A stretch of DNA of 64,000 nucleotides. Origin: Sedimentibacter hydroxybenzoicus DSM 7310. Its GTDB lineage: Bacteria; Bacillota; Clostridia; Tissierellales; Sedimentibacteraceae. This document shows positions 28,050 through 51,024 of this stretch, one piece after another. Position 1 is the first letter of the stretch. Every line of letters begins with the position of its first letter. Position numbers and translations under genes: made by a program. The notes under the pieces are model-generated. The model saw only the letters and a program-made list of their open reading frames with translations. It did not search any database and had not been told where the DNA came from. The stretch lies in contig NZ_JACBNQ010000002.1 of assembly GCF_013403245.1 (NCBI RefSeq), forward strand, positions 310,001 through 374,000. Direction: 5' to 3'.

Positions 28050-28785
28050 ATCGGTTCATAAGGTGTTTAATAAAAATACGCCTGACGAGTTCATTGCATT
28101 AAAAAGCTTAAACTTGTCCGTTTCGGAAGGGGAATTTGTAACTGTCATAGGAGGGAACGGTGCAGGAAAATCCACTGTTTTCAATATAATTTCAGGGAGC
28201 ATTTTATGCGATTCAGGAGTGGTAGAATTAGACGGAACGGATATAACCTATATGCCTGTATATAAACGCGCTTCTTATGTTGGGCGGATTTTTCAGGACC
28301 CGATGAAAGGAACTGCTCCAAGCCTGACTGTCGGAGAGAATTTAATCATCGCATATATGAAAAGCATGAAGAAAAACAATCTGAGCATTCCGTCAAGTAA
28401 GGAAAAGAATTATATTAAGGAGCGCCTTGCAGATTTGAAATTAGGGCTTGAGGATAGATTAAACACTAAAATCGGATTGCTTTCAGGCGGCCAAAGACAG
28501 GCGGTAGCCTTAGTCATGGCTACACTGGTCAAACCGAAGCTGTTGCTGCTGGATGAGCATACGGCAGCCTTGGACCCCGTCAGTGCAGAAGCGGTGATGG
28601 AACTTACAGAAAAGATTGTAACGGAAAATAATATAACGACACTGATGATTACCCATAACATAACATCTGCTTTAGATTACGGAAGCAGAACAATAATGAT
28701 GGATCTGGGGGAAATAATTATTGATGTATGCGGAGAAGAAAGAAAAAAACTAACCGTTCAGGAGCTGGTTAGTCAGTATAAATAA
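28036..28785 (+). CDS. ABC transporter ATP-binding protein (TrpZ-type)
   Basis: The 249-residue ATPase of the T-box-controlled importer. Walker A GGNGAGKST is near residue 38, Q-loop IFQDPMKG near 84, signature LLSGGQRQAVALVMA near 152, Walker B LLLLDEHTAALDP near 173 and the H-loop LMITHNI near 207. It uses an ATG at the end of trpY within a GGAGG-rich stretch. Its 3' end overlaps the convergent zinc-ribbon gene by 17 bases. Confidence 0.93.
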   Translation: MLRIESVHKVFNKNTPDEFIALKSLNLSVSEGEFVTVIGGNGAGKSTVFNIISGSILCDSGVVELDGTDITYMPVYKRASYVGRIFQDPMKGTAPSLTVGENLIIAYMKSMKKNNLSIPSSKEKNYIKERLADLKLGLEDRLNTKIGLLSGGQRQAVALVMATLVKPKLLLLDEHTAALDPVSAEAVMELTEKIVTENNITTLMITHNITSALDYGSRTIMMDLGEIIIDVCGEERKKLTVQELVSQYK

Positions 28786-33674: not shown

Positions 33675-33787
33675 AAAAACTTTTAAACATATGCATTGTT
33701 TTTCAAACACGAATTTGATATTATCTATAAATAAAAGTGGAATTTGAAAAGTAGGTGAGGGCAATATCAAATAATCAAGGAAAATTT

Positions 33788-35404
33788 TTGCAGGATCTTG
33801 TAAGCAATACTCTAAGTGTTGGAGAAGTATTAAATAATGTAAATTTTGAAAGATATCAACTTATTGCAGGAAAAGGTGGACTTAATAATCGCTGCAGGCA
33901 TATGATTATTTTAGAGACACCGGAAGGAATTGAGTGGCTTCAGGGAGGAGAATTTCTTTTGACGTCCGGATTTGCTTTTAAGGATAATCCTGAGGCTTGG
34001 AAAACTGTAATTGTCAGGGCACACAAGATGGGGATAGCCGCAATAGCTATAAAAGAAAAAAGATATTTATCAAAAATCCCTCAAGAAATGATAGAACAGG
34101 CCGACAAATATAATCTACCAATCATATTGCTACCTATTGACTCTATTTATACTGATAAAATTGCATCTTTTTATGAGGCGCTGTTTTATATCAAAAATGA
34201 GTATCTTGTACAGGCAAAAAACATGGATGAAAGACTGTTGAATCTTGTTTTCGATAAGAATAAAGCGGATGAAGTAATAGTAGGGATTTCCGGACTTACC
34301 AATGTTTCCATAGTTGTATACGATGAAGCATTTTTCGAAATATCAAGTTGTTTGGTTAATGAAACACATAAATTAGTTTTTGAAAGTGCTGAATATAAGG
34401 ATTTGCTTAATAAAAGAAAATTTGGTAAGTGTTATAGATTGGAGGTTGATGACAAGACCTATTTTGTTAAATATTTCCTAATGCCGTCGGATGGGGTTGC
34501 AAGTTATATGTGTGCAGCCGGCGATATGGAAATTAGTATTCTTCAGGAAAAAGCGCTGCAATACGGCAGCATGATATTTTCACTAAAAGAAAAAAAAGAA
34601 GAACGACAAAGTTTAAAAGAGATTAAGTTAAAGCGTTCAATTACGGAATTGATTCTAAACAATGCAAATCTTGGGGAAGATTTTTATAATAGTATTGAAT
34701 ATGATTATTCGTGGAATTCAAAGAAAGGTGCAATCGGTCTGGTAATTACTTCTGAGGACACAAGAAAATTTTCTGTTAATAAAGACGTACAAAAAATGAA
34801 GCAATATATTTACAGAATTATTAATAGAATATTTGAAAAAATTGAATATTTAATTACAGAAAGGCAAAACAGTATAATTGTTTTTTTTGCAATAGACAGT
34901 ATAGAAGATATGGATCGATTGTTAAAAACTATTAAGCTGTATTTAAAAAAGAACTACAATAAAAATATAAGAATAACATTTGGAATATCACGCATGTATG
35001 AGTCAATCAGAGATGTTCTTGAAATGTATAATGATTGTATGATAACAAGAATGTTTGATAAAAAGTATGAAATAACGTATTATGATTCACTTGATACTGT
35101 AAAACTTGTTTATCCTCTTAAAGATGATAAGCAATTTACGGAGTATTATAAAAAAACTATTGATGTGTTGTCAGATTATGATAAAAAGTATGGGCGAGAA
35201 CTAATTAAAACACTTAAATATTATTTTGATTATAATATGAATATGAAAGATACCGCAGACAGTCTATTTATTCATGTTGAAACACTTCGATACAGGTTAA
35301 ATAAAATTGAGCAGCTTACAGGGTACACTTTAGATACATCAGATGGATTGCTTGTCTTACAATTAACTATTAAGCTCCATTTTATAATAGGAGATAATGA
35401 ATAA
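33788..35404 (+). CDS. PucR family transcriptional regulator
   Basis: About 538 residues. An N-terminal PucR domain (LSVGEVLNNVNFERYQLIAG...ILETPEGIEWLQGGEFLLTSG) is followed by a GGDEF-like CdaR middle domain, with an HTH_30 at the C-terminus (NMKDTADSLFIHVETLRYRLNKIEQLTGY). Members control purine, allantoin, hydantoin, sugar-acid or amino-acid catabolism and usually sense the pathway substrate. The TTG at 33788 follows AAGGA; an upstream GTG at 33755 is the alternative. It heads the AOR/Liv island and probably regulates it. Confidence 0.87.
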   Translation: MQDLVSNTLSVGEVLNNVNFERYQLIAGKGGLNNRCRHMIILETPEGIEWLQGGEFLLTSGFAFKDNPEAWKTVIVRAHKMGIAAIAIKEKRYLSKIPQEMIEQADKYNLPIILLPIDSIYTDKIASFYEALFYIKNEYLVQAKNMDERLLNLVFDKNKADEVIVGISGLTNVSIVVYDEAFFEISSCLVNETHKLVFESAEYKDLLNKRKFGKCYRLEVDDKTYFVKYFLMPSDGVASYMCAAGDMEISILQEKALQYGSMIFSLKEKKEERQSLKEIKLKRSITELILNNANLGEDFYNSIEYDYSWNSKKGAIGLVITSEDTRKFSVNKDVQKMKQYIYRIINRIFEKIEYLITERQNSIIVFFAIDSIEDMDRLLKTIKLYLKKNYNKNIRITFGISRMYESIRDVLEMYNDCMITRMFDKKYEITYYDSLDTVKLVYPLKDDKQFTEYYKKTIDVLSDYDKKYGRELIKTLKYYFDYNMNMKDTADSLFIHVETLRYRLNKIEQLTGYTLDTSDGLLVLQLTIKLHFIIGDNE

Positions 35405-35419
35405 AAGCCGTTCGTTCGT

Positions 35420-35462
35420 GGCACCTTTAGCTATGTGATATCATAACTAATGGTGCCTTTTT
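35420..35462 (+). terminator. terminator between pucR-type gene and binding-protein gene
   Basis: GGCACC (35420-35425) with GGTGCC (35452-35457) and TTTTT. Its long loop holds TATGTGATATCATA (35432-35445), which could instead pair with TATGATATCACATA (35464-35477), its exact reverse complement. Confidence 0.65.
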
Positions 35463-35516
35463 CTATGATATCACATAAAAGTATTAACGAGCATTCCTTC
35501 CAAGATGTGATATAAT
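35432..35516 (+). promoter_or_regulatory. repeated ATGTGATATCA sites and alternative hairpin
   Basis: Three copies of a GTGATAT-type sequence: 35432-35445, inverted at 35464-35477, and ATGTGATATA at 35505-35514. The first two form a 14-base hairpin exclusive of the terminator. The third overlaps a TATAAT (35511-35516). Operator or attenuator roles are both possible. Confidence 0.5.
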
Positions 35517-35622
35517 ATTTCAAAATAAATAATAATTATAATTTTTAATTATCAATGATAAGGTTTTCAAATCGATATCCATATGGATGTCGATTAATAT
35601 AATTATTAAGAGGAGGAAAGAG

Positions 35623-36771
35623 ATGGGTAAAAGAATATTAGTATCATTATTTGTGTTTATTATGTTAACTACGATGATGTTTAGTGGATGTTCAAACAGC
35701 GGTAGTAATAGTAAAGAATCTGATGTAAAAGAGATTGAAATAGGAGTTTTCGGTCCTTTAACAGGTACTATGGCAATTGGAGGAACACGTCAGAAAGATG
35801 GTGTTCAATATGCAATTGACAAGATTAATGAAGCGGGCGGAGTTTTAGGTGCAAAACTTGTCCCAATTTTTGAAGATACTGAAGGTAATGCTCAAAATGC
35901 GGTTAATATTATGAATAAGTTTCTTCACAAAGATAAAGTAATTGCAACAATTGGTTCTAATAATAGCCCTGAGGTATTGGCAGTCCTCGATATGATTGCA
36001 GAAACGAAAACTCCTCATATAGTACCATCAGGTGTGGCGGGAGCAATTACACAATCAGGTAATGAATATGTATTTCGTATCACGGCTACAGATGTTGTGT
36101 ATTCAAAAGGTCTTGTTGACTTTGCAGTAAATGAACTAAATGCAAAGAAAATAGCCATAATTCATGATACAAATGACTATGGTCAAGGCGGAAAGGTAAT
36201 GGTAACTGATAATATTAAGGCAGCGGGATTGGAGCCTGTTGTTGTTGAGGGTTATACTACAGGAACTAAAGATTTTTCTCCATCGCTTCTGAAAGTAAAA
36301 TCGGCAGGTGCTGATGCTATAATTATTTGGGGCAATTATACAGAAGGTGCACAGCTTGTTAGACAGATAAAAGAGCTGTCCATTCCGGGTGAAGTACTTT
36401 TATCAACAGGTGTTACTATTGGTAATTTCTTTGAACTTGCCGGTGAAGCTGCAGATAATCTTTACGGAATATCTTCTGGTTTTAGTCCTGAAAGACCGGA
36501 TGATGTTGCTCAGAATTTTGTAAAAGAATACAATGATAAAATGGGTTATATTCCTGATATAAATGTTGTACTGGCTTATGATGCCATAAATGTTTTAGCT
36601 AAGGCTATAAATGATGCAGGAACAACAGACGGAGCTGCTGTACGTGATGCGCTAAGTAAAATTCAGGGTTTTGAGGCAATAAGCGGTCCCGTATCATTCA
36701 GAGAGAACGGTGAAGGCGGTACAAATTCTTTGGTATTCAGGATTGAAAAAGGTAAAATCATACTTTATTAA
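35623..36771 (+). CDS. Liv-type ABC transporter substrate-binding lipoprotein
   Basis: 382 residues. The ATG at 35623 follows AGGAGG. The signal peptide MGKRILVSLFVFIML is followed by a lipobox SGCSN (Cys about 23), anchoring it outside the membrane. The mature protein is a Peripla_BP_6 type I fold: EIGVFGPLTGTMAIGGTRQKDGVQYAIDKINEAGGVLG, TIGSNNSPEVLAVLDM, VFRITATDVVYSKGL. This family binds branched-chain amino acids, amides, urea or short organic acids. The ligand is not predictable. It is separated by about 100 kb-scale-independent neighbours only: ferredoxin and AOR genes lie between it and its permeases at 40.1 kb. Confidence 0.9.
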   Translation: MGKRILVSLFVFIMLTTMMFSGCSNSGSNSKESDVKEIEIGVFGPLTGTMAIGGTRQKDGVQYAIDKINEAGGVLGAKLVPIFEDTEGNAQNAVNIMNKFLHKDKVIATIGSNNSPEVLAVLDMIAETKTPHIVPSGVAGAITQSGNEYVFRITATDVVYSKGLVDFAVNELNAKKIAIIHDTNDYGQGGKVMVTDNIKAAGLEPVVVEGYTTGTKDFSPSLLKVKSAGADAIIIWGNYTEGAQLVRQIKELSIPGEVLLSTGVTIGNFFELAGEAADNLYGISSGFSPERPDDVAQNFVKEYNDKMGYIPDINVVLAYDAINVLAKAINDAGTTDGAAVRDALSKIQGFEAISGPVSFRENGEGGTNSLVFRIEKGKIILY

Positions 36772-36813
36772 AACTTAAATAATAACTATAAAATATCGGA
36801 CAAGGAGGATATA

Positions 36814-37224
36814 TTGATTACTAAATTAAAGGTAAATAAAAAAGCTCAATGTGTTGGATGTCGTCAATGTGAGCTTGCATGCAGCATTTTTCATGAGGGA
36901 GAATTTTCACCATGGCTATCCAGGGTTGTTATTCAACGTAATGAAATAATCAAATTATCCAAACCTTATATTTGTCAACAATGCAAAAATGCAAAATGTC
37001 AGAGCTCTTGCCCTAATAATGCAATTAATCCGGATAAGAATGGTATACTTGCGGTGAATTTAGAATTATGCGATGGTTGCGGTATATGTATCAAAGCGTG
37101 TCCGTTTCGTGCAATGGGTATGGACAACATAAAACAAAAGGCCTATAAATGTGATTTGTGTAATGGGGAAGTTAAATGTGTGAAGGCTTGTCCTGCAAAT
37201 GTTCTGATTGCAGAGGAGGTTTAG
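36814..37224 (+). CDS. four-cluster ferredoxin-like electron-transfer protein
   Basis: 136 residues from a TTG that follows AAGGAGG. Four Cys quartets are visible: CVGCRQCELAC (13-23), CQQCKNAKCQSSC, CDGCGICIKAC and CDLCNGEVKCVKAC. That gives up to four [4Fe-4S] clusters, as in HycB/DmsB-type subunits and AOR-linked electron carriers. It lies directly before the AOR-family gene, three bases apart, so it is the likely electron acceptor (or donor) of that enzyme. Confidence 0.93.
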   Translation: MITKLKVNKKAQCVGCRQCELACSIFHEGEFSPWLSRVVIQRNEIIKLSKPYICQQCKNAKCQSSCPNNAINPDKNGILAVNLELCDGCGICIKACPFRAMGMDNIKQKAYKCDLCNGEVKCVKACPANVLIAEEV

Positions 37225-37226
37225 TT

Positions 37227-39152
37227 ATGCGAAAAGTGAATGAATGTGTGGTTTTACATGTCAATTTGGAGGATAAAAGCCATTTTACAGAAGTGTTTAA
37301 CGAAGAAGACATGAAAAAATATCTAGGCGGTCGTGGTATTGCTTCCTTGATTTTATATCGCGATGTTCCTAAAAATACAGACCCGTATGGGCAGGATAAT
37401 ATACTCGTTTTTGCGCCGGGTACACTTGTAGGTACTAATGCTCCAACGGCCGGGCGTACTACAGTAATAGGGAAAAGTCCTGCAACAGGACTCTTTATGA
37501 AAGCAAATATGGGCGGACATTGGGGTGCTGAACTAAAATATACCGGTTATGACGCTTTGGTTATCCATGGCAACTCAAAAGAGTGGGTTAATTTGGTTAT
37601 AACAGACAACGAAATACTGTTCGAATCCGCAGATTGTTACCTTGGATTGGGTGTACAGGAAACTACAGAACAAATTGAGGAAAAATATAAAGATATGCCC
37701 GGTATTTCTGTGTGCTGCATCGGACAATCAGGAGAAAATTTAGTAAAATATGCAGGTATATTTAACTCTATGTACAATACTGCTGCAAGAGGCGGACTGG
37801 GTACTGTAATGGGTGCTAAAAAGATAAAGGCTATATCATGCTATGGCCGTACCGGTATCCGGCTTCATGATACAAAGAAATATCTTGAAGTTGTGGAGTA
37901 TGTTCAGCAAAAAATCAAAAATATTGGAAGATGCACATATTACAAGGAATATGGAACTGCCGGCGGAATGATTGGATTAAATGAGAGCGGAACATTGCCT
38001 GTTAGGAATTTTCAGGCAGGAAATATGGATAATGTTTATGACATAAGCGGACAAGCAATTATGGAGCAAGGTAATTTTTTGCGGTGGGAATCATGCTTTG
38101 GATGTACAATTTCCTGTAAGCGCTATTGTAAAACAACGACAAAGTATATCGGAACTGAATCCGGTGGTCCTGAATATGAAACAATCAGCGTTTTTGGAGC
38201 AGGCTGTGAGGTAGTTGATATGGATGCGTGCTTAAGGGCTAATTATCTAACCAACGTGTATGGCTTAGATTGTATTTCAACCGGGGCAGTAATTCAATGG
38301 GCAATGGAAACAGCAGAAAACGGGCTATTGCCAAACAAGTTTACGGATCCTGCTACCGGTATAGAATACAATCTCGAATTTGGTAATGCAGAAGCAATGT
38401 TGATTTTAATAGATATGATAGCATTTCGCAGAGGCATAGGAGATTTGCTTGCGGAAGGTGTAAAAATAGCTTCGGAACGTGTGGGCGGTGAATCCTGGAA
38501 GTGGGCGGTTGAATCAAAGGGACTCGAACAATCAAGAGTTGAAACTCGCAATTCCAAGGCTTATGCTCTCGCTTTTGCAACAAATCCGAGAGGACCTGAC
38601 CATCTTTATGGGCAGCCAATGGCTGAAGGCGGATTTTCACCGGAGATGAGAGCAATTATTAAACATATAACAGGGGATGAAAAGTATGCGGTACCAGGCT
38701 CCACGGAGATGAAGCCGGAGATAGTAGTATGGCATGAAGAATCATATGTAATGACTGATGCTCTTGGGTTTTGTTCCCGTGCAACATTGTCAACTTATGC
38801 AATACTCCCTGAGGATATGGCTATGTTATTTGAATCCGGTACGGGTATAAAAATGTCTGAGGATGATATATTCGAATCAGCTCGCAGGGTAATCAATTTA
38901 GAGCGCTCATTTAATATGCGTGAAGGTGTAAGGCGAGCAAGTGATACATTGCCATGGAGACTTATGAATGAGTCAATAAAAAATCCCAAGGGTGATAGGT
39001 CAATGAATTCTACTGAGGAGCTAAACAATATGCTCGATCAATATTATATAATCAGAGAATGGGATGAAACTGGACTTCCCCTTTTAGGAACCATAAAAAA
39101 ATATGGACTGGATACAATTATAAGAGAAGGAGATTATGATAATGGCAATTAA
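37227..39152 (+). CDS. aldehyde ferredoxin oxidoreductase (AOR) family tungsten/molybdenum enzyme
   Basis: A 641-residue AOR-family protein (start ATG 37227 after AGGAGG). The cofactor-binding block NMGGHWGAELKYTGYDA is at 94-110. The [4Fe-4S] ligands are C290, C293 and C297 (CFGCTISC) and C516 (LGFCSR). AARGGLGTVMG (186-196) and NPRGPDH (453-459) are further family motifs. The enzyme should hold a bis-pyranopterin tungsten or molybdenum and pass electrons to the adjacent four-cluster ferredoxin. It may oxidise an aldehyde or reduce a carboxylate. Family includes benzoyl-CoA reductase subunits and functionally unknown members, so the substrate is open. Confidence 0.93.
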   Translation: MRKVNECVVLHVNLEDKSHFTEVFNEEDMKKYLGGRGIASLILYRDVPKNTDPYGQDNILVFAPGTLVGTNAPTAGRTTVIGKSPATGLFMKANMGGHWGAELKYTGYDALVIHGNSKEWVNLVITDNEILFESADCYLGLGVQETTEQIEEKYKDMPGISVCCIGQSGENLVKYAGIFNSMYNTAARGGLGTVMGAKKIKAISCYGRTGIRLHDTKKYLEVVEYVQQKIKNIGRCTYYKEYGTAGGMIGLNESGTLPVRNFQAGNMDNVYDISGQAIMEQGNFLRWESCFGCTISCKRYCKTTTKYIGTESGGPEYETISVFGAGCEVVDMDACLRANYLTNVYGLDCISTGAVIQWAMETAENGLLPNKFTDPATGIEYNLEFGNAEAMLILIDMIAFRRGIGDLLAEGVKIASERVGGESWKWAVESKGLEQSRVETRNSKAYALAFATNPRGPDHLYGQPMAEGGFSPEMRAIIKHITGDEKYAVPGSTEMKPEIVVWHEESYVMTDALGFCSRATLSTYAILPEDMAMLFESGTGIKMSEDDIFESARRVINLERSFNMREGVRRASDTLPWRLMNESIKNPKGDRSMNSTEELNNMLDQYYIIREWDETGLPLLGTIKKYGLDTIIREGDYDNGN

Positions 39153-39801
39153 AATAGTTGGGATTTCAACAAGTCCAAGACATGCAAACTCAGAGATTAT
39201 GGTTAAAGCAGCTCTTGAAGCAGCAAAAGGAATAAATGCTGAGGTGATTACTGAATTTGTATCATTGGCAGGGAAAAATATAAAAGGTTGTACAAACTGC
39301 AGAGCTTGTATTAAGACAGGCTATTGCATTATAAAAGATGATTGGGAGGAATGCTTTAAGCCATTAAGGGATCCTGTTCCTAATGGAGTAATAATTGGAG
39401 CACCGGTTTATTTTTTTAACCTTAATTCCCAGACAAGAGCTTTTTTAGAACGTACAACTTCATTATTAAAAGGAAATTTCTTTTCGGAGGCAAAACAGTT
39501 TCCTCCTGATTGGACCAAGACTGCAGCTGCCGGTATGGCGGTAGGATTTGATAGAAACGGTGGACAGGAGCATGCTATTTCATCACTTGACCATTGGTTT
39601 TTAACAAATAACTTTGTAGTAGTAGGCGGCACTCATGTAGGTTATATCGGTGCACCCGGCTGGCTTATGGAGGAATCTAACAAGGATTCGGTGGAAAAGG
39701 ATGTTAAAGTAGGTATGAAATCGGCACAAATTATAGGAGAAAAAGTAGCAAGGACTGCTCTTATGCTTCAACTTGGAAATGAGGCGTTAAAGAATATGTA
39801 A
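39142..39801 (+). CDS. iron-sulfur flavoprotein / NADPH-dependent FMN reductase family
   Basis: About 219 residues of the flavodoxin-like fold. The phosphate loop GISTSPRHANSEIMVKAAL is at the N-terminus. GCTNCRACIKTGYCIIKDDW (about 49-68) places the Cys set found in iron-sulfur flavoproteins. APVYFFNLNSQTRAFLERT and AVGFDRNGGQEHA are also typical. The ATG at 39142 suits the AAGGAG nine bases upstream better than the ATG at 39136. It overlaps the AOR gene's end, so a redox relay AOR-ferredoxin-flavoprotein is plausible. Confidence 0.85.
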   Translation: MAIKIVGISTSPRHANSEIMVKAALEAAKGINAEVITEFVSLAGKNIKGCTNCRACIKTGYCIIKDDWEECFKPLRDPVPNGVIIGAPVYFFNLNSQTRAFLERTTSLLKGNFFSEAKQFPPDWTKTAAAGMAVGFDRNGGQEHAISSLDHWFLTNNFVVVGGTHVGYIGAPGWLMEESNKDSVEKDVKVGMKSAQIIGEKVARTALMLQLGNEALKNM

Positions 39802-39813
39802 GAGGTATTTGAC

Positions 39814-40086
39814 ATGGCAATTTATATTTCATTAAGCGTATATGGAGGTAAGTTTGCTCCTATTATAAACGAAAAAGTAAAAATTCCTGAACAAATTAGT
39901 GTTAAAGACCTTTTAAACATGCTTCAAAAAGAGAATAGAATGCCACAGAAGTTTGGAAAAGGAGAAGGATTTACAGAATTTCTTGTTTTATTAAACGGAT
40001 ACAATGTAATGATTTCTCCCGGACTTGAGACAGTTCTGAAGGATTCTGACCGCGTGGTTGTTCTTCCTGCTATGGCTGGTGGTTAA
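39814..40086 (+). CDS. MoaD/ThiS family sulfur-carrier protein
   Basis: A 90-residue ubiquitin-like protein ending in the required Gly-Gly (LPAMAGG). The DRVVVLP segment before the tail is the typical MoaD/ThiS beta strand. Its C-terminal glycine would be adenylated and thiocarboxylated to donate sulfur, here most simply to the tungsto/molybdopterin of the neighbouring AOR-family enzyme. AGAGG lies upstream. The presence of a dedicated MoaD in the cluster supports the pterin-enzyme reading. Confidence 0.88.
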   Translation: MAIYISLSVYGGKFAPIINEKVKIPEQISVKDLLNMLQKENRMPQKFGKGEGFTEFLVLLNGYNVMISPGLETVLKDSDRVVVLPAMAGG

Positions 40087-40140
40087 TCGGTAAATTATAG
40101 AACCGTTAACTACATAAAAATTAAATTTGAGGTGATAAAT

Positions 40141-41025
40141 TTGCAAATTGGTTTTTCTGATATATTACAAATTATTGTTGGCGGTCTTGCAATGGGGTGC
40201 GTTTATTCACTTGTTGCATTAGGCTACACTATAACCTATAATTCTCTTCGCGTAATCAATTTTGCGCAAGGTGATATGTTTATGCTGGGTGCAGTTTTTG
40301 GATTAACAATTTATTTAAATTTTGGAGGTTATTATTTTATATCTCTGATATTTGCAGGTTTAGGTGCAGCGTTAGTAGGAATGATTATTGAACGAATCAT
40401 ATTTCGAACACTCAGGAATAGTCCTCCTCTTAACCTGATAATAGCAACTATCGGAGTTTCTATTGTTATTCGTGCTTTAGCACAGATAATTTGGGGTTCA
40501 CAGGCTATGTCATTCCCTCCTGTATTTGGCAGCAGCCCTGTGAAAATCGGCCCCATTGTTATTATGCCTTCTTATCTTTGGATAATTGGTATAGCATTTG
40601 TATCAATTTTATTGCTAACGTTCTTCTTTAAAAAGACGCTGACCGGTAAGGCTATGCTGGCAACAGCACAACATCGGGATGCAGCATCAATTATGGGAAT
40701 CAATATTTTTAAATCGGATTCTTTAGCTGCATCCATAAGTGCGGGTCTCGGCGGCATAGGCGGAGTACTGGTAGGTCCTATTTTCTTCGTTGAAACTGAG
40801 ATGGGTGCCATTGCAGGTCTCAAGGGTTTTGCAGCTGCCGTGCTTGGAGGTTTCGGAAGTGTACCTGGTGCTATAGTTGGAGGGGTTATACTGGGACTCG
40901 CTGAAAATTTTTCTGCAAGTTTTATTTCTTCGGCCTATCGTGACGCTGTTGCATTCTTAATTCTCATTGGTGTACTTGTGTTTAAGCCAAATGGTATTCT
41001 TGGCAAGAAGATAATGAGGGTATAG
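40141..41025 (+). CDS. livH: Liv-type ABC permease LivH
   Basis: A 294-residue permease with about eight hydrophobic segments. TTG start at 40141, seven bases after GAGGTG (a GTG inside that site is rejected). Seen: MGCVYSLVALGYTITYNSLRVINFAQGDMFMLGA, QHRDAASIMGINIFKSDSLA and GLKGFAAAVLGGFGSVPGAIVGG. These are characteristic LivH segments for import of branched-chain amino acids, amides or similar small solutes. It pairs with LivM two bases downstream. Confidence 0.92.
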   Translation: MQIGFSDILQIIVGGLAMGCVYSLVALGYTITYNSLRVINFAQGDMFMLGAVFGLTIYLNFGGYYFISLIFAGLGAALVGMIIERIIFRTLRNSPPLNLIIATIGVSIVIRALAQIIWGSQAMSFPPVFGSSPVKIGPIVIMPSYLWIIGIAFVSILLLTFFFKKTLTGKAMLATAQHRDAASIMGINIFKSDSLAASISAGLGGIGGVLVGPIFFVETEMGAIAGLKGFAAAVLGGFGSVPGAIVGGVILGLAENFSASFISSAYRDAVAFLILIGVLVFKPNGILGKKIMRV

Positions 41026-41027
41026 TA

Positions 41028-42002
41028 ATGAAGAAAATAGCAGATTTACTAACATTAAAAAAACCTTCTATAATATGGATAATTATTCTTGTTACAATTC
41101 CGTTTGTTGTTAAAAGTGTATATTATCTGCATCTGATGAATTATGTATTGATCCTTATTATTTTGACTTTAGGATTAAATTTGCTGACCGGTTTTACAGG
41201 TCAGATATCCATAGGACATGCTGGTTTTTACGGAATCGGCGCATATGTATCTGCATATTTATCTGTAACAATGGGATTATCGTTTTGGATTGCATTTCCT
41301 ATTTCCGGTATTATAACTGCTTTTATAGGCTATTTAATTGGCAAGCCTATATTAAAATTGAAAGGTGCATATCTTTCAATTGCATCAATTGGAATTGGAG
41401 AAATTACCAGACTTGTGCTTATAAACTGGACAAAAGTTACTCATGGCGCAGAGGGCTTTAAGGGGATCCCTTCACCGGTATTTTTTGGAATTGCCATAGA
41501 TAATGACCTGAAATACTATTATTTATTGGTTCCTATAGTTATTATTATATATTTTTTAATAAATTCACTTATTGATTCAGAAGCGGGCAGAGCATTCAGA
41601 GCTATTCGCGATGAAGAAATTGCTGCTGAGTTCATGGGAATTAATGTTGCAAAAATGAAGTTAATGTCTTTTATTATTTCATCATTTTTAGCAGGCATTG
41701 CAGGCAGTCTTTTGGCTCACATGGATGGTTACCTTTCGCCGTTTAGTTTTAGCTTTACTCAATCAGTATCATTTCTTATGATGATTTTGGCAGGAGGACT
41801 TGGTTATAAATGGGGTCCGATAATAGGAGTTTTTCTATTAACATTTGCTAAGGAATGGTTTCGTTTTTTCAATGAGTACCAGCTTATTATATATGGCTTG
41901 ATGCTTGTTTTAATTATAATGTTTATGCCTAAAGGTATTTATGGTTCCTTTAAAGAAATTTTCCTTAAGCTTATGCGAAGGAGGAATGAAGATGCCAGAT
42001 AA
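41028..42002 (+). CDS. livM: Liv-type ABC permease LivM
   Basis: A 324-residue permease with about nine hydrophobic segments. Characteristic LivM stretches are GLNLLTGFTGQISIGHAGFYGIGAY (about 44-68), FRAIRDEEIAAEFMGINVAKMK (about 190-211) and ILAGGLGYKWGPIIGVFLLT (about 249-268). Its end overlaps the livG start by 11 bases. With LivH, LivG and LivF it completes the importer in this island. Confidence 0.92.
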   Translation: MKKIADLLTLKKPSIIWIIILVTIPFVVKSVYYLHLMNYVLILIILTLGLNLLTGFTGQISIGHAGFYGIGAYVSAYLSVTMGLSFWIAFPISGIITAFIGYLIGKPILKLKGAYLSIASIGIGEITRLVLINWTKVTHGAEGFKGIPSPVFFGIAIDNDLKYYYLLVPIVIIIYFLINSLIDSEAGRAFRAIRDEEIAAEFMGINVAKMKLMSFIISSFLAGIAGSLLAHMDGYLSPFSFSFTQSVSFLMMILAGGLGYKWGPIIGVFLLTFAKEWFRFFNEYQLIIYGLMLVLIIMFMPKGIYGSFKEIFLKLMRRRNEDAR

Positions 42003-42795
42003 TGTACTTGAAATTAAAGGAATTACGAAAAAATTCGGAGGGCTGACAGCTCTTTCGAAATTAGATTTAGAAGTTGAGCAAGGATCAATACACGCAATTA
42101 TCGGTCCCAATGGATCAGGAAAAACTACTTTTTTTAATGTCATAACAGGATTGTATGTTCCGGATGAGGGTTCTGTAATTTTCTGCGGAAAGGATGTAAC
42201 CGGAACTGTGCCGTATAAAATGGCACGATTAGGTATGGGACGTACTTTTCAGACTATATTTCTATTTAAACAAATGACAGTATTAGAGAATGTTCTCATA
42301 GGTTTGCAGAGTGAATCGGAATACAAATTAATCAACAATATGATTATGACACCTAAACGCCAATTATATGAAAAAGAATTGCATGAGAAAGCATATGAAC
42401 TTCTTGCCTTTGTAGGATTGTATGATCAAAGAAATGATATTGCATGCAATCTGCCTTATGGGAAGCAGCGTCTTTTGGAAGTTGCACGAGCAATGGGTAT
42501 TAACCCGAAGATCATTTTACTTGATGAACCGGCAGCGGGTATGAATCCGCAAGAAACGTCGGAACTTATTGAGAGAGTAAAAAATATTCGCAATAAATAT
42601 AATATGACAGTATTAATCATTGAGCACGATATGAAGTTAGTTATGCAGCTTGCTGATACTATTACATGTCTTGACCATGGCTCGGTAATAGCTTGCGGTA
42701 ACCCCAAAATAGTAACTAAGGATAGCAAGGTAGTAGAAGCTTACTTGGGGATAGTAGGTGAAAAGGATACAATAGAATATAATAAAGTTGATTAA
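41992..42795 (+). CDS. livG: Liv-type ABC ATPase LivG
   Basis: 267 residues from ATG 41992 (AAGGAGG seven bases upstream). Walker A GPNGSGKTTF is at about 38, Q-loop FQTIFLFKQMTVLENV about 85, and a weak signature segment NLPYGKQRLLEVARAM about 150 (LSxGQ is replaced by LPYGKQ, as is normal for LivG). Walker B IILLDEPAAGMNP is at about 170 and the H-loop IIEHDM near 204. All catalytic elements are present. Confidence 0.93.
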   Translation: MPDNVLEIKGITKKFGGLTALSKLDLEVEQGSIHAIIGPNGSGKTTFFNVITGLYVPDEGSVIFCGKDVTGTVPYKMARLGMGRTFQTIFLFKQMTVLENVLIGLQSESEYKLINNMIMTPKRQLYEKELHEKAYELLAFVGLYDQRNDIACNLPYGKQRLLEVARAMGINPKIILLDEPAAGMNPQETSELIERVKNIRNKYNMTVLIIEHDMKLVMQLADTITCLDHGSVIACGNPKIVTKDSKVVEAYLGIVGEKDTIEYNKVD

Positions 42796-42872
42796 GAAAA
42801 GGATCAACTGATTAAAATGGGGATATAAAATATAAAAGACCGCCCCAACGGTAGAAAGGATATTTTACGACT

Positions 42873-43796
42873 ATGCTTAAACAGATTTTAGAGATTAAAG
42901 ATATTTTGGATGGGATGGTAACAGGTAATGATGTTGCAGATTATCTTCGTGAACGCGGTGCAAAATCAGTTATTATAACTCCTATTGACGGAGAACAAGG
43001 ACATACAGACTTTCTAAAAATACAAATTAACGGTACGATGGGAAAATCTGTGGGAGGAGATGAACCAACATTAGGAATTATTGGAAGATTAGGAGGTATT
43101 GGAGCACGACCTAATCGCATAGGCATAGTATCTGATGCGGATGGTGCGATTGCAGCACTGGCAGTTGCCCTGAAATTAGTAGAAATGCAAGAAAGAGGAG
43201 ATAAACTTCGGGGAGATGTTATTATTTGTACTCATATTTGTCCGAACGCACCAATATTACCCCATAAGCCTGTTCCGTTAATGAATTCTCCTGTTGATAT
43301 GGAAATGTTGAATAAATATGAAGTGTCACAAGAAATGGATGCAATTTTGTCCGTTGATGCGACTAAAGGAAATATTATTTTGAATAACCGGGGTATTGCA
43401 ATAACGCAAACAGTCTTAAACGGTTATATTTTACCTGTAAGCCAGGAATTGCTTGAATTGGAAAGCTACTGTACCGGCATGCTGCCTGTTGTTCTTCCTA
43501 TATGTCAGTATGACATTACTCCTTATGGTAATGGTCTTAGTCACATAAACAGTATTGTTCAGCCATCTGTGGCAGCTAATGTTCCTGTTGTAGGTGTAGC
43601 TATTACTGCACAATCAACGGTACCGGGATGTGCAACCGGCTCATGTCAAGAAACCGATATACGTGATGCAGCTGTGTTTTGTGTTGAGGTAGCAAAATCC
43701 TTTACTAAAGAAACAGATCTTTTTTACAATAAAACAGAATACAATCGTTGTATTGAATTATATGGTGAGTTTACTCATTTTAAAAGATCGGAGTGA
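42873..43796 (+). CDS. DUF1177 family protein
   Basis: A 307-residue protein of the DUF1177 family, whose function is not known to me. It shows GxGxxGG-like IIGRLGGIGARPNRIG (about 70-85), DADGAIAALAVALKL (about 90-104), VIICTHICPNAPILPHKP (about 117-134) and a Cys-rich PGCATGSCQETDIRDAA (about 260-276). No signal or membrane segment was seen, so it is cytosolic. It sits between livG and livF, which normally adjoin, so it is part of the operon. Possibly acts on the imported substrate. Confidence 0.85.
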   Translation: MLKQILEIKDILDGMVTGNDVADYLRERGAKSVIITPIDGEQGHTDFLKIQINGTMGKSVGGDEPTLGIIGRLGGIGARPNRIGIVSDADGAIAALAVALKLVEMQERGDKLRGDVIICTHICPNAPILPHKPVPLMNSPVDMEMLNKYEVSQEMDAILSVDATKGNIILNNRGIAITQTVLNGYILPVSQELLELESYCTGMLPVVLPICQYDITPYGNGLSHINSIVQPSVAANVPVVGVAITAQSTVPGCATGSCQETDIRDAAVFCVEVAKSFTKETDLFYNKTEYNRCIELYGEFTHFKRSE

Positions 43797-43801
43797 TCGT
43801 C

Positions 43802-44506
43802 TTGCTAAGTGTAAAAAACATTCGTTGCAGTTATGGAAACATTGAAGTTTTAAAGGGTATAAGCTTAAAAGTCGAAGAGGGTCAAATAGTTGCTTTAATA
43901 GGTGCTAACGGTGCAGGAAAAACTACTACGTTAAAAGCAATTTCGGGTATTCTCCCAATTACGTCTGGGTCTATAACTATTAATAATGTAGATATCAGCA
44001 GGGAAAAACCTTATAATATGGTTAAACATCGCATGTCACAGGTGCCGGAAGGACGTCAGGTTTTTCCCGAACTTTCTGTATTAGACAATCTGCTTTTAGG
44101 GGGATATGCAATAAAAGACAAGAAATGCGTGAATGATAGAATTGATAATATGCTTGAATTCTTTCCTAGGCTCAGAGAACGTGCAAAACAGCATGCAGGA
44201 ACACTATCCGGAGGAGAACAGCAAATGCTTGCAATTGCACGAGCGTTGGTATCTGATCCAAAGCTGTTGTTAATGGATGAACCTTCAATGGGTCTTTCAC
44301 CTAAGTTGGTTGGTGAGGTTTTTGATATTATTGTTGATTTAAAGAATCAAGGCATCACTATTCTATTGGTAGAACAAAATGCTCATATGGCATTGAATAT
44401 AGCAGATTATGCATATGTCATACAAACCGGTGAAATTGTTATTTCGGGTACGGGTCATGATATGAGTGCAAATGATGAGGTTCGCAAAGCATATCTTTCT
44501 GAATGA
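43802..44506 (+). CDS. livF: Liv-type ABC ATPase LivF
   Basis: 234 residues from the TTG at 43802, after GGAGTGAT at the DUF1177 stop. Walker A GANGAGKTTTLKA is near residue 36 and the family-typical VPEGRQVFPELSVLDNLLLG near 82. The signature TLSGGEQQMLAIARAL is near 138, Walker B LLMDEPSMGLSP near 160 and the H-loop LLVEQNAHM near 191. Partner of LivG. Confidence 0.93.
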   Translation: MLSVKNIRCSYGNIEVLKGISLKVEEGQIVALIGANGAGKTTTLKAISGILPITSGSITINNVDISREKPYNMVKHRMSQVPEGRQVFPELSVLDNLLLGGYAIKDKKCVNDRIDNMLEFFPRLRERAKQHAGTLSGGEQQMLAIARALVSDPKLLLMDEPSMGLSPKLVGEVFDIIVDLKNQGITILLVEQNAHMALNIADYAYVIQTGEIVISGTGHDMSANDEVRKAYLSE

Positions 44507-44646
44507 TTAGGATAAGATACTTATAAACAGATTGAATTATTTTTATTTGAAAAATACTTCTTCCATTTGTTTGTAAGGTGGAATTAGCTTTTAATTGAAC
44601 TTTCTTAATTATAAAATATTCTATAAAAATAAAAGGAGTAAAATAT

Positions 44647-44973
44647 ATGGAAAGAAAGAAAAAAGCAAAAGTAAAAATTACAGTATTAAAAACGTTATAT
44701 CATGAGGATCTTGTTAAGGAATATTTATTACCAGATCAGCAGGCAACATATGGTCCTTGTTATCGCCACCACGTGGGGCAGGAATTCATTATTGACAGCT
44801 TTGACAAACCGGCAGAATTTTGTTCTTGGGCGTGGTCGGATATCCACCGAGAGTTTATTTCAGTGATGTTCAATGCCGATTTTCCAAACTTTAAAGATGG
44901 AGGGACTATCATCGCAACCTGTACGGATGGTTTAAGACCGGTTGTTTTCAAAGTAGAACGAATCGATTGTTAA
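44647..44973 (+). CDS. TIGR04076 family small protein
   Basis: A 108-residue protein of the TIGR04076 family (function unknown), with AAGGAG before the ATG. It starts with a basic VKITVLKTLYHEDLVKEYL and carries a conserved-looking Cys/Trp/His core FCSWAWSDIHREFISVMF, then GGTIIATCTDGLRPVVFKVERI. Conserved Cys at about 37, 60 and 98 might bind a metal or cofactor. It stands 140 bases after livF but on the same strand, before a terminator, so it closes the island. Confidence 0.85.
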   Translation: MERKKKAKVKITVLKTLYHEDLVKEYLLPDQQATYGPCYRHHVGQEFIIDSFDKPAEFCSWAWSDIHREFISVMFNADFPNFKDGGTIIATCTDGLRPVVFKVERIDC

Positions 44974-45286: not shown

Positions 45287-45318
45287 TTTACCGCGTGGTA
45301 TATACCAGCATACCAATT

Positions 45319-46071
45319 ATGAAAGAGTGTGATACTATCAAAAACAAATCATACATTCCTCCGGCTTATATTCAAATCAGGGATATCCTTGTAGAGAAAA
45401 TAAATACAGGGGAATTAAAAAGTGACAATCAGTTACCGTCAGAGAGAGAACTAAGCGAAACATATAAGATTAGCAGGATGACTGCAAGGAATGCGCTTAC
45501 ACAGCTTGTGGACTCCGGCTATGCCTACAGACTTAAAGGAAAAGGTACATTTGTAAGATTTCCGAAAATCGAGAGAGATTTTGTCAGGCTCAGCGGCTTT
45601 TCTCAAATGTTAAAGTCTAAAGGAATCAAGCCAAGCAACAAAATTGTAAAGTCGGGAATTGTTGTGGCTGATAAAAAAATAGCCTCACTGTTGGAAACAA
45701 CAATGGGAACGAAGGTTTATGAGATTGTCCGTATAAGATATGGAAATGATATCGCGCTGGCACTGGAATATTCTTATTTACCTGTCAACTTGTTTGACAA
45801 TTTGCTGCAATATGATTTTGAAAACGATTCACTGTACAAGGTTATAGAAGAAAATTACAACTACAAGCTAAAATATTCCAAGCAATGGATAAAAATAATT
45901 ACCTTAAATAAAGAAGAATCTAAATTATTAAATGTGAAAGAAAATACGCCGGCATTTTTGTTGGAATCTATATCATACGACATGGATGAAAAAGTCGTAG
46001 AGTCTACATTATCATTAAATATTGGTGATAAAACAGCTTTTTATACCGAGCTGTGGCCAAGTAATATTTAA
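45319..46071 (+). CDS. GntR family regulator, HutC/FrlR-like (UTRA domain)
   Basis: About 250 residues. The N-terminal GntR wHTH is YIPPAYIQIRDILVEKINTGELKSDNQLPSERELSETYKISRMTARNALTQL (split over 8-58), with a UTRA ligand domain behind it (about 85-245). The start is uncertain: the ATG at 45319 lacks a good ribosome site, and the -10 box ends only about 30 bases upstream. It heads the transporter and frlBCD-like genes, so a FrlR-type role, sensing an Amadori compound phosphate, is inferred. Confidence 0.82.
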   Translation: MKECDTIKNKSYIPPAYIQIRDILVEKINTGELKSDNQLPSERELSETYKISRMTARNALTQLVDSGYAYRLKGKGTFVRFPKIERDFVRLSGFSQMLKSKGIKPSNKIVKSGIVVADKKIASLLETTMGTKVYEIVRIRYGNDIALALEYSYLPVNLFDNLLQYDFENDSLYKVIEENYNYKLKYSKQWIKIITLNKEESKLLNVKENTPAFLLESISYDMDEKVVESTLSLNIGDKTAFYTELWPSNI

Positions 46072-46094
46072 ATAAATAAAAAATGAGGTGGAAG

Positions 46095-47165
46095 ATGTCT
46101 GATTCGATTGTTTCTTTAATAGATGTTGAAAAAAGTTTCGGAAAAAATAAAGTTGTTAAGAAAATGAATGTTGAAATAAAGGAAGGGGAATTTCTGACTT
46201 TGCTCGGACCTTCGGGATGCGGGAAAACTACAACCCTGAGAATGATCGCAGGGTTTGAAGAAGCCACTTCCGGAGCAATCAAGGTTCAGGGAGAAAGTGT
46301 TGAAGATAAGGAGCCTTTTGAAAGAGATGTAAATACGGTTTTTCAGAACTACGCTCTTTTTCCGCACATGAGTGTATTTGATAACATAGCTTATGGCTTG
46401 AAAATAAGAAAAAGACCCAAGGATGAAATAACAAAACGAGTTAATGAAATGCTGGATCTTGTTCAGCTTAAGGGATATGAAAACAGAAAGCCAGATGCTC
46501 TATCCGGAGGACAAAAGCAAAGAGTCGCAATTGCCAGAGCTCTCATAAACAATCCTAAAGTTCTGCTGTTGGACGAGCCTCTTGGTGCACTTGATCTCAA
46601 GCTTAGAAAGCAGATGCAGGTAGAGCTGAAAAGACTGCAAAAGAAGCTTGGAATTACCTTTGTTTATGTAACTCATGACCAGGAAGAGGCTCTTACAATG
46701 AGTGACAGAATAGCGGTAATGAACGAAGGCGTGATAGAACAGCTTGCAACGCCCAGAGAGATTTATGACAGACCGTTTACTAAATTTGTGGCAGGCTTTA
46801 TCGGAGAATCTAATATTTTTGACGGTAAGGTTAAAGCTTTACACGATGGAATTTTAGACGTGGAAACATCATCAGGTACAATGAAGGTAAAGGGAAGCGG
46901 ATTTGATGTGGGTGAAAGCATCCACGTGTCAATAAGACCGGAGTATGTAAAGGTGAATTCCGATCCTGTGGAAGGATTTGATCTCAAGGGAAATGTCAAG
47001 GATTATATATACATGGGAACTGTTGTAAAAACATCTGTTGATTTAAAAGATAATATTGAAATAAAGTATTCCCGATTTGAAAAGGATGAAGATTTCAAAG
47101 AAGGAGATTCTGTAAACATATACTGGAATCCTGAAAGAGCTGTTGCCATAAAGGCTAAAAAGTAG
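46095..47165 (+). CDS. potA: PotA-type ABC transporter ATPase
   Basis: 356 residues (start MSDSIVSLIDVEKSF at 46095, after GAGGTGG). Walker A GPSGCGKTT is near 38, Q-loop FQNYALFPHMSVFDNIAYG near 81, signature ALSGGQKQRVAIARAL near 136 and Walker B LLLDEPLGALD near 157. The C-terminal TOBE/OB-like region follows (HVSIRPEYVKVN). This is the PotA (polyamine, MOI/TOBE) type ATPase. Given the downstream frlBCD-like genes, the likely cargo is a glycated amino acid such as fructoselysine rather than a polyamine. Confidence 0.92.
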   Translation: MSDSIVSLIDVEKSFGKNKVVKKMNVEIKEGEFLTLLGPSGCGKTTTLRMIAGFEEATSGAIKVQGESVEDKEPFERDVNTVFQNYALFPHMSVFDNIAYGLKIRKRPKDEITKRVNEMLDLVQLKGYENRKPDALSGGQKQRVAIARALINNPKVLLLDEPLGALDLKLRKQMQVELKRLQKKLGITFVYVTHDQEEALTMSDRIAVMNEGVIEQLATPREIYDRPFTKFVAGFIGESNIFDGKVKALHDGILDVETSSGTMKVKGSGFDVGESIHVSIRPEYVKVNSDPVEGFDLKGNVKDYIYMGTVVKTSVDLKDNIEIKYSRFEKDEDFKEGDSVNIYWNPERAVAIKAKK

Positions 47166-47178
47166 CGTGGAGGACCAT

Positions 47179-48045
47179 ATGCAAAAAAATACTTTTAAAC
47201 GAAAAACACTGCCGTCCTTAGCTATGGCCGGACCGGTTTCCTTATGGATGATTTTATTTGTAACACTGCCCATGCTGTATATTATTTATATAAGCTTTAT
47301 GTCCAGAGGAGTGTTTGGCGATGTTGTATATAAATTTTCATTGGAAAGCTATGAAACATTACTGGACAGCACATATTTTAAAGTTATATTAAAATCTATA
47401 AAGGCAGCATTCGTAACAACTGTGCTGTGTATTCTTATAGGATATCCGTTTGCGTATTATATTGCGAAAAAACCAAAGGAAGTAGCGTCAAAGCTTATAA
47501 TGCTCATTATGATTCCTTTCTGGACAAACTCTTTGATGAGACTTAACAGCTGGCTTCTTTTGTTTCAGACAAGCGGACCCGTAAATAATTTTCTTCTGAG
47601 TACGGGTTTTATAGACACACCTATGAGCTTTGTATATACAGATGGTCTTGTAATGGTTGGTATGATAACAAATATGCTTCCGTTTGCGGTGCTCCCAATG
47701 TACAGCTCAATTGAAAAATTAAGCAGGTCTCTTTTGGAAGCATCGGCAGATCTCGGTGCCTCCGGACGCACTACATTTTTCAATATAACACTGCCCCTTA
47801 CATTTCCGGGAATATTTTCTTCTATAATATTGGTATTTATACCTTCTCTTGGTATATATACCGTAACGGACATGCTCGGCGGCGGAAAAGTCCTGTATAT
47901 AGGAAATATTATTAAAAATCAATTCGGGTCAATACGAAACTGGCCTCTCGGGGCTGCACTTTCCGTACTGTTGATTGTTATAACGGGATTGCTTATTTAT
48001 ATATACACCAGATTTGCAAAGATTGAAGATATGGAGGTGTTGTAA
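47179..48045 (+). CDS. potB: PotB-type ABC permease
   Basis: 288 residues from ATG 47179 (GTGGAGG upstream). Six hydrophobic segments are seen, with the binding-protein-dependent loop LLEASADLGASGRTTFFNITLPLTFPG (about 180-207; EAA motif). PotB/PotH-type permeases begin with a short basic tail and a long first periplasmic loop, as here (SRGVFGDVVYKFSLESY). Fits between PotA- and PotC-type genes without gaps. Confidence 0.9.
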   Translation: MQKNTFKRKTLPSLAMAGPVSLWMILFVTLPMLYIIYISFMSRGVFGDVVYKFSLESYETLLDSTYFKVILKSIKAAFVTTVLCILIGYPFAYYIAKKPKEVASKLIMLIMIPFWTNSLMRLNSWLLLFQTSGPVNNFLLSTGFIDTPMSFVYTDGLVMVGMITNMLPFAVLPMYSSIEKLSRSLLEASADLGASGRTTFFNITLPLTFPGIFSSIILVFIPSLGIYTVTDMLGGGKVLYIGNIIKNQFGSIRNWPLGAALSVLLIVITGLLIYIYTRFAKIEDMEVL

Positions 48046-48046
48046 A

Positions 48047-48874
48047 ATGAGTATTTCAAGAAAACAAAAAGGTAAAAGACGGCAGGAGCTGCTGGGAACT
48101 ATTTACTCAGTTGCCATATACACCATACTGTATATTCCGGTATTTGTAATGATGATGTTTTCATTCAACAATCAAAGATATAACTATTACTGGAATGGTT
48201 TTACGACTCAGTGGTATGCAAAATTATTTAATAATTCAGCCGTTATCGGAAGCTTATGGTATTCGGTGGTAATTGCAGTATTAGCAACTGTGATTTCTGT
48301 TACGATAGGTACAATCGGTGCACTCGGATTAAAGAAATATGAATTCAGAGGAAAGAAATTCATTAACAATATGCTGTATATACCCATAATAGTTCCCGAA
48401 ATTGTCATGGCGGTGGCACTGCTTATTATATTCATCAAGATAGGCTTGTCTCTGGGGATGGGAACTATATTAATAGGTCACTGTACTTTCTGCATACCTT
48501 ATGCGGTAGTTACAATCAAGGGTCGTATAAGCGGTGACGGCTACAGCCTTGAGGAGGCATCAATGGATCTCGGTGCCAACAGAATCAAGACATTTTTAAA
48601 CGTAACTCTTCCGAGTATTATGCCGGGAGTAATGAGTGCGGCATTTCTGTCATTTACTCTTTCAATAGATGATGTTGTAATGAGTAATATGCTTGCAGGA
48701 GCAAAAAATTCAACATTGCCGGTTTTGATTCTTTCAATGAACAAGACAGGAGTTACGCCGGATGTAAATGCACTCACAACAATCATGATTCTATTCATTG
48801 TTATAGCAATGATTTTGAATAATTTTATCAGAAATGCGTTAAAGAAACGCGCAAAAATGGAGGAAAACATATGA
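48047..48874 (+). CDS. potC: PotC-type ABC permease
   Basis: 275 residues from ATG 48047 (GGAGGTG upstream). Six hydrophobic segments, with the EAA loop SLEEASMDLGANRIKTFLNVTLPSIMPG (about 165-192) and FSFNNQRYNYYWNGFTTQWY early on, as in PotC/PotI. It overlaps the binding-protein gene by four bases. Second permease of the frl-type importer. Confidence 0.9.
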   Translation: MSISRKQKGKRRQELLGTIYSVAIYTILYIPVFVMMMFSFNNQRYNYYWNGFTTQWYAKLFNNSAVIGSLWYSVVIAVLATVISVTIGTIGALGLKKYEFRGKKFINNMLYIPIIVPEIVMAVALLIIFIKIGLSLGMGTILIGHCTFCIPYAVVTIKGRISGDGYSLEEASMDLGANRIKTFLNVTLPSIMPGVMSAAFLSFTLSIDDVVMSNMLAGAKNSTLPVLILSMNKTGVTPDVNALTTIMILFIVIAMILNNFIRNALKKRAKMEENI

Positions 48875-49929: not shown

Positions 49930-49954
49930 TCAGGTTAAACAGGAGAACATAATA

Positions 49955-50950: not shown

Positions 50951-50970
50951 GAGCTTGTCATCAATCTTAC

Positions 50971-51006
50971 AGGCTGCTTCTTAATTATGAAGCAGCCTAT
51001 TTTTTA
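50971..51006 (+). terminator. internal terminator between frlB- and frlC-like genes
   Basis: AGGCTGCTTC, TTAATTA loop, TGAAGCAGCCT, then TTTTTT. Strong enough to reduce read-through. Confidence 0.8.
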
Positions 51007-51024
51007 CTTATGAAGGGAGATTTT

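Follow-up and report, generated by a model that had tools for sequence, protein, structure and literature searches.

A gene island around a probable tungsten enzyme

The closest described systems are the Class II tungsten oxidoreductases (WORs), such as PfASOR/WOR5 and CbGOR, in which a large pterin subunit (WorL) is accompanied by an adjoining small subunit with four clusters (WorS) and by a ThiS/MoaD-like gene nearby; the ThiS-like gene WorX stands near some WORs (PMC13328260). According to the same 2026 survey, only five of 92 WOR clades have a known physiological role. These elements are also found in a 64,000-nucleotide stretch of the genome of Sedimentibacter hydroxybenzoicus DSM 7310 (contig NZ_JACBNQ010000002.1, positions 310,001 to 374,000; hereafter the window), where they differ from the described enzymes in having Val for Tyr427 and in lying inside an ABC importer operon together with a PucR-type regulator, an iron-sulfur flavoprotein (Isf) and a DUF1177 protein. 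The component families are known, and their combination is new. The island that they form recurs with its gene order intact in four other genomes and is a real, rare unit. We propose that it is a self-contained catabolic module for the import of an amide- or ureide-like compound, a step performed by DUF1177 and an oxidation by the tungsten enzyme, and give this reading a probability of about one half. The island and its small adjoining gene are made up as follows:

33755..35404, + strand: PucR-type regulator with PucR domain and C-terminal HTH_30 domain (Pfam)
35587..36771, + strand: LivJ-type ABC binding lipoprotein (Pfam; alignment of five island proteins with four PDB chains)
36814..37224, + strand: WorS, small polyferredoxin subunit with 16 Cys for four [4Fe-4S] clusters (Pfam; solved relatives; Cys count)
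37227..39152 (open reading frame opens at 37176), + strand: WorL, AOR-family tungsto-/molybdopterin oxidoreductase (Pfam PF02730 and PF01314; 1aor; tree)
39136..39801, + strand: Isf, iron-sulfur flavoprotein of the FMN_red family with CX2CX2CX5C (Pfam PF03358; motif)
39814..40086, + strand: MoaD/ThiS-type sulfur carrier, WorX-like, with C-terminal GG (Pfam, NCBIfam)
40132..41025, + strand: LivH-type permease (Pfam BPD_transp_2)
41028..42002, + strand: LivM-type permease (Pfam; NCBIfam)
41992..42795 (open reading frame opens at 41941), + strand: LivG-type ATPase (Pfam; NCBIfam)
42873..43796, + strand: DUF1177 protein, between LivG and LivF (Pfam, 399 bits)
43793..44506, + strand: LivF-type ATPase (Pfam)
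44647..44973, + strand: TIGR04076 small protein, of a family without known function (NCBIfam, 69.6 bits, cut-off 33)

The original prediction, made from the letters of the window, had described twelve co-oriented genes, and all are present and intact on one strand according to Pfam and NCBIfam. The complete importer that it named (binding protein, LivH, M, G and F) is there with all five genes, interrupted as claimed by the enzyme genes and by DUF1177. Its AOR-family enzyme does retain the four cluster Cys and the cofactor Cys, its four-cluster ferredoxin has the 16 Cys expected and is best read as the enzyme small subunit WorS, and the FMN_red domain with CX2CX2CX5C and the MoaD/ThiS domain with its GG end bear out the flavoprotein and the sulfur carrier. 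From LivJ to LivF the intergenic gaps range from -62 to +77 bases, and the gap between PucR and LivJ is 182 bases. Judging from the starts of the orthologues in a second island (L048), the true start of the AOR is probably at 37227 and that of LivG at 41992. The host genome (3.81 Mb in 71 contigs) contains eight genes of the AOR family and one each for DUF1177 and PucR over the family cut-off. No molybdenum/tungsten cofactor RNA reaches the gathering score within the window.

Searches for the AOR covered 249 genomes of the order, 391 of the class and 398 of the phylum, the GTDB contig collection and two further orders, those of G370 (13 genomes) and G361 (12 genomes); these samples overlap, and only the best few candidates were scored per genome. 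Four further AORs are 52-62% identical to that of the window over their length and are the only ones found at or above 52%; in the order of the window none of the other AORs in the 249 genomes exceeds 46%. They lie in Clostridiaceae bacterium BRH_c20a (locus L048), described as a Bacillota metagenome-assembled genome (PMC5067608), and in G370 (L083), G335 (L084) and G361 (L085), of which G335 and G370 are of one genus; the five carriers span at least three families. Leaving out the host genome, the island is found in three of the 398 genomes of the phylum sample, and the same genomes turn up again in the order of G370 (two of 13) and in that of G361 (one of 12). In the plasmid collection the best AOR among the matches listed (25 of 88 records) is 34.6% identical.

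The order PucR-LivJ-WorS-WorL(AOR)-Isf-MoaD-LivH-LivM-LivG-DUF1177-LivF is common to all five loci, the window included (the MoaD of L085, missed by tblastn, was located by position and has the C-terminal GG). A search for the same neighbourhood in other genomes, proposed with the original prediction, thus places the eleven-gene order beyond chance. Compared pair by pair, the ten structural genes show identities consistent with one common history, in which L083 and L084 are always the closest pair, L085 is nearest to these two for every gene, and the nearest relative of the window is L048 for eight genes, MoaD and LivH not settling the matter. The flanks differ, with AddAB-like nuclease/helicase genes at L048 and an frl-like operon at the window. 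This sporadic occurrence combined with a fixed gene order suggests horizontal spread of the island. TIGR04076 adjoins the island in all five loci; in the window it lies downstream of LivF, in the other four upstream of PucR. A TIGR04076 gene also stands beside a more distant WOR cluster (L095, position 15535; 32% match by tblastn), and the family may be linked to WORs.

The probable tungsten enzyme and its clade

The window AOR matches 1aor with an E-value of 3e-93. When placed in a tree, as had been suggested with the original prediction, the island AORs form one clade (100/100) distinct from PfAOR and nested in a wider clade of 20 rows (100/100), which is set apart both from PfAOR and from the PfAOR-like paralogue of the host. 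As the best solved relatives of the ferredoxin are small subunits of tungsten oxidoreductases, namely 9mqx_E, 8c0z_C (Aromatoleum AOR) and 6x1o_B (WOR5/ASOR), we read it as WorS and the enzyme as Class II. By its predicted subunits it is a Class II enzyme in the scheme of PMC13328260: WorL has the AFOR_N and AFOR_C domains, and WorS has four [4Fe-4S] clusters. Neither WorN (FAD/NAD) nor the bifurcation subunits WorABC are found among the island genes by Pfam. Tungsten in the cofactor and ferredoxin as electron carrier, which also belong to the class, are presumed for the island enzyme. The word flavoprotein occurs nowhere in the main text describing that scheme (PMC13328260), and the Isf is an extra component of the island. 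It is 63-71% identical to the Isf of the other four islands, shows the motif CX2CX2CX5C in all five and has one weak solved relative (7d38). We take this family to be defined by an FMN_red/flavodoxin domain with a compact CX2CX2CX4-7C motif. The C-terminal GG of MoaD is likewise present in all five islands.

Four second-shell residues, Thr243, Glu313, Tyr427 and His448, are described for AOR (PMC13328260, PMC12096430), and AOR sensu stricto has all of them. The wide clade, of whose 20 rows two are identical, keeps Thr243, Glu313 and His448 throughout and Tyr427 nowhere: 18 rows have Val there, one Ile and one Cys, and in 18 of the 20 an Arg precedes this position. The window enzyme thus has three of the four, with Val for Tyr427. 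It shares 35% identity, the cofactor Cys, Thr243, Glu313 and His448 with PfAOR, which keeps Tyr427, as does the PfAOR-like paralogue of the host (on contig C33), whereas the island enzyme has lost it and has its own WorS. The wide clade is marked by LEQSRVET; PDHLYGQP and CSRATL are shared by all five islands and missing from each of the 15 sister rows. At the position of the extra Cys that ligates the metal in BamB/YdhV (YdhV Cys336), all island and sister rows have a gap; YdhV and another host paralogue have the Cys. That paralogue (contig C9, 57553-58914), with its YdhV-type Cys ligand, groups with E. coli YdhV at 100/100. No characterised member of this WOR clade was found in our comparison, which left out the published 92-clade tree.

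The alternative that survives best, although we consider it unlikely, is that the tungsten enzyme runs some other low-potential two-electron reaction on the compound taken up, for instance by reducing a carboxylate or by cleaving or oxidising at a C-N or C-S bond; Isf would be its electron partner. The replacement of Tyr427 throughout the clade, the preceding Arg and the motifs peculiar to the islands all point this way, as do the S-Me-thiohydantoin-like DUF917 genes of the sister loci (see below). The sulfonate-oxidising ASOR has His for that Tyr and is also without the Thr, and WOR4, for which no activity is recorded, has Trp, but an odd cluster too (PMC12096430). Against this, most of the aldehyde machinery is in place, with Thr243, Glu313 and His448 kept and the BamB/YdhV Cys ligand absent, and His for the Tyr is found in one AOR as well (PMC12096430). 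The GAPOR clade lacks the Tyr/His region and yet oxidises an aldehyde (PMC12096430). The loss of Tyr427 is a lead and no proof of another reaction. A route through ergothioneine was also considered and dropped, as the metallopterin ergothioneine synthase resembles acetylene hydratase/DMSO reductase and not AOR (PMC9516567).

DUF1177, its usual company and the regulator

Two sets of control loci were read. The first consists of 15 sister loci with the next-closest AORs (42-48% identical in searches, 40-47% in alignment), read over 7 to 20 kb; these are 14 distinct sequences, since the AORs of L091, a short contig of 7 kb, and L092 are identical. Twelve more distant AORs (34-38%) were left out of the neighbourhood reading. 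The sister clusters resemble the island in their related WorL, a four-cluster ferredoxin, an importer and small-molecule enzymes, but the Liv system and DUF1177 are found in none: the DUF1177, LivJ, LivH/LivM and PucR families as clustered here are absent from all 15. In L095 a weak LivM match (29%) turns out to be a permease gene from a sugar-type importer, and L079 has a different PucR-like gene at its edge. Sugar-type ABC importers, PfkB, KDPG aldolase, aminotransferases and IclR each occur in a part of the 15. DUF917, which corresponds to the Pfam family S-Me-THD-like (S-Me-thiohydantoin-like), is found in 12 of the 15 by clustering and in 13 by tblastn; it is absent from the islands, which carry DUF1177 instead. 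The original prediction had named separate occurrence of AOR and Liv genes as evidence against a unit: they stand together in all four cases where the AOR is at least 52% identical to that of the window, and the 15 loci with more distant AORs, of at most 48%, have no such Liv system.

The second set comprises 43 other DUF1177 loci, 16 of them stretches of relatives and 27 taken from 299 sampled genomes of the phylum. The 16 stretches contain 17 of the 21 DUF1177 matches outside the host genome (those of G027, G085, G090 and G099 were left out); the DUF1177 of L078 was missed by clustering, where a longer overlapping open reading frame was taken, hence a count of 15 of 16. The 27 loci come from 27 of 29 further genomes with DUF1177, the broken genes of G392 and G461 having been left out. 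The family is present in 33 of the 299 sampled genomes, the host included, and also in archaea; a scan of viral contigs for further DUF1177 sequences found none. The AORs, LivH and LivM of the islands find no match in any of the 43 loci, and the sole weak LivJ match (25%) is a gene of L073 that scores as ABC_sub_bind (PF04392) and not as Liv. Outside the islands DUF1177 is mostly accompanied by peptide importers, AroM, Asp/Glu/hydantoin racemase, DUF917 and M20/M29 peptidases, and often by PucR. A manual count over the 27 loci gave AroM in 20, a racemase in 18, an OPT/Dpp importer in 18, DUF917 in 15 and PucR in 14; L175, L178, L179 and L180 have none of these save weak ABC-ATPase matches.

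Three plasmid-borne DUF1177 genes (from Klebsiella, Paenibacillus and the archaeon Salinigranum) are found with AroM and an OPT or ABC importer, two of the sets including a racemase and a peptidase and one DUF917; their annotated regulators are IclR or Lrp, not PucR. A plasmid typed as conjugative (NZ_CP057460.1) carries OPT-DUF1177-AroM-PepE-racemase between transposase genes, so that clusters with DUF1177 can be mobile. Another locus (L072, genome G086, contig C44, 7373-11470) contains two divergent DUF1177 clusters side by side, of which one has a Dpp-type importer and the other OPT.

DUF1177 genes are thus normally at home in clusters of the peptide/hydantoin type, in many cases together with PucR, and AORs of this clade usually have DUF917 for a neighbour. 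Both contexts meet in the island, which has DUF1177 in the place that DUF917 takes in the sister clusters. It shares DUF1177 and PucR with the usual DUF1177 clusters, but lacks their AroM, racemase, DUF917 and peptidase and has the Liv importer and the tungsten enzyme. Its DUF1177 proteins form one clade (100/97), separate from those of the usual clusters. The original prediction of a single unit serving one substrate gains support from the kept order and from the AORs and the DUF1177 proteins of the islands each forming one clade. As 12 of the 15 sister loci have DUF917 and none DUF1177, and the islands reverse this, both halves suggest one and the same kind of chemistry. One could suppose, although we regard it as doubtful, that this WOR clade without the catalytic Tyr takes part in breaking down amide-, ureide- or thiohydantoin-like compounds after their import, alongside DUF1177 (DUF917 in the sister loci), and that it catalyses a step other than plain aldehyde oxidation. 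If true, this would be a first function both for the WOR clade and for DUF1177.

In the literature searched, which was mostly without subscription papers and supplements, there is no description of this cluster or of the function of DUF1177, which is mentioned only in an unrelated context; within that scope the island is undescribed, as the original prediction had it. The matches listed for DUF917 and thiohydantoins all concern synthetic or plant thiohydantoins. The reading of DUF1177 as an M42-like peptidase, suggested by motifs seen by eye, was dropped: against 42 sequences from M42 loci and 14 neighbour families hhalign probabilities stay below 1%, a weak negative given the shallow alignments.

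The regulator of the window differs from those of the other islands. Its PucR domain (PF07905, 91.2 bits) and HTH_30 domain (PF13556, 67.3 bits) are both over the cut-off, and with the PucRs of the other islands it shares only 19-25% identity. Three of the latter, sufficiently whole for the tree, form their own clade (100/100), while the window PucR groups at 100/100 with PucRs of DUF1177-peptide clusters from the same genus (L064, L065) and the same order (L069). The tree omits three duplicate loci, the PucR of L083 (broken by a run of N) and rows under 430 residues; its background consists of the best-scoring PucRs rather than all, and several rows have long branches. On the simplest reading of these sequences, the structural genes arrived with the island and the regulator was swapped for one from a DUF1177 cluster. 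As the window PucR belongs with three DUF1177-linked regulators, its inducer may resemble what DUF1177 handles.

Uptake and fate of the substrate

The invariant stretches of LivJ in the five islands are SNNSP, PSGVA, TNDYGQGG, WGNYTEGAQLVRQI and STGVTIGNF. Two ligand positions are occupied by Val and Thr in all five, against Thr and Asp/Glu in the four PDB chains named as amino-acid binders. In leucine-binding proteins this Thr holds the alpha-amino and carboxyl groups and the acidic residue the amine. The Thr and acidic residue by which an HAAT importer would be recognised are therefore both replaced. Because of this, the ligand of LivJ is probably no free alpha-amino acid, and it is probably the same in all five islands. 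The original prediction of a branched-chain-type importer stands in that the proteins are of the Liv type by family, but the label of branched-chain amino acid importer is probably wrong.

In the proposed module PucR would sense an intracellular inducer and switch on the operon from LivJ to LivF. The Liv-type importer would take up a small compound, which by the lost binding residues should not be a free alpha-amino acid and is most likely an amide- or ureide-like metabolite. Once in the cell, this compound would be acted on by DUF1177, which to judge from its company elsewhere is probably an enzyme of the hydrolase type. The product, in the simplest case an aldehyde or semialdehyde, would be oxidised to a carboxylic acid by WorL with WorS; the direction, the order of steps and the metal are presumed. 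Electrons may pass through the four WorS clusters to ferredoxin or to the island Isf, and MoaD would supply sulfur for the pterin cofactor. The dedicated binding protein in the same operon offers a direct handle on the substrate, and then on the enzyme, its electron partners and DUF1177, for which work on the ligand would give a first biochemical context.

Several observations weigh against this catabolic module. Aldehyde oxidation is not assured in an enzyme that has lost Tyr427, and shared regulation could be all that links the transporter, the enzyme and DUF1177. DUF1177 has no match in the PDB, an AlphaFold2 model from two sequences (window and L048) reached a pLDDT of 34.9, and the failure of its profiles to match M42 or the 14 neighbour families (hhalign, shallow alignments) counts here too. 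Six of the nine DUF1177-linked PucRs in the tree fall away from that of the window, and only five islands were found, two of them in one genus. A promoter scan was at chance level (58 found against a mean of 54.6 expected from shuffles), as was a terminator scan.

It is improbable that the tungsten enzyme serves detoxification, such that a compound is imported for its carbon or nitrogen and WorLS clears away an aldehyde that DUF1177 releases as a by-product, with the main catabolic route encoded elsewhere in the genome. Such a role is common for characterised WORs (PMC13328260) and would agree with the lack of any downstream carbon pathway gene between PucR and LivF, but enzyme genes inside the importer operon, in an order fixed in all five islands, are more than a clean-up enzyme needs. 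Ordinary uptake of branched-chain amino acids, with the AOR acting on the branched aldehydes of amino acid fermentation, is very improbable. In its favour, the best NCBIfam matches of LivJ, LivM and LivG are branched-chain models, though all under the curated cut-offs; against it, both amino-acid-binding positions are lost in the five LivJs, and the stretch from PucR to LivF contains neither an aminotransferase nor an oxoacid enzyme.

Elsewhere in the window, the frl-like operon directly downstream (45295-52651) encodes a GntR/UTRA regulator, an ABC importer of the spermidine/putrescine kind, a fructoselysine 3-epimerase (403 bits, cut-off 305), a further open reading frame at 49919 and, by eye, a PfkB-like sugar kinase at 51854; we read it as an operon for fructoselysine use with an unusual importer. 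Genes for an Nqr/Rnf-type ion-pumping complex lie in one run at 21797-25760 on the minus strand, a possible sink for low-potential electrons. Genes for a TrpX-like tryptophan ABC importer (302.5 bits, under the curated cut-off of 390) lie at 26038-28785. A T-box leader is found at 61118-61334 (134.8 bits).

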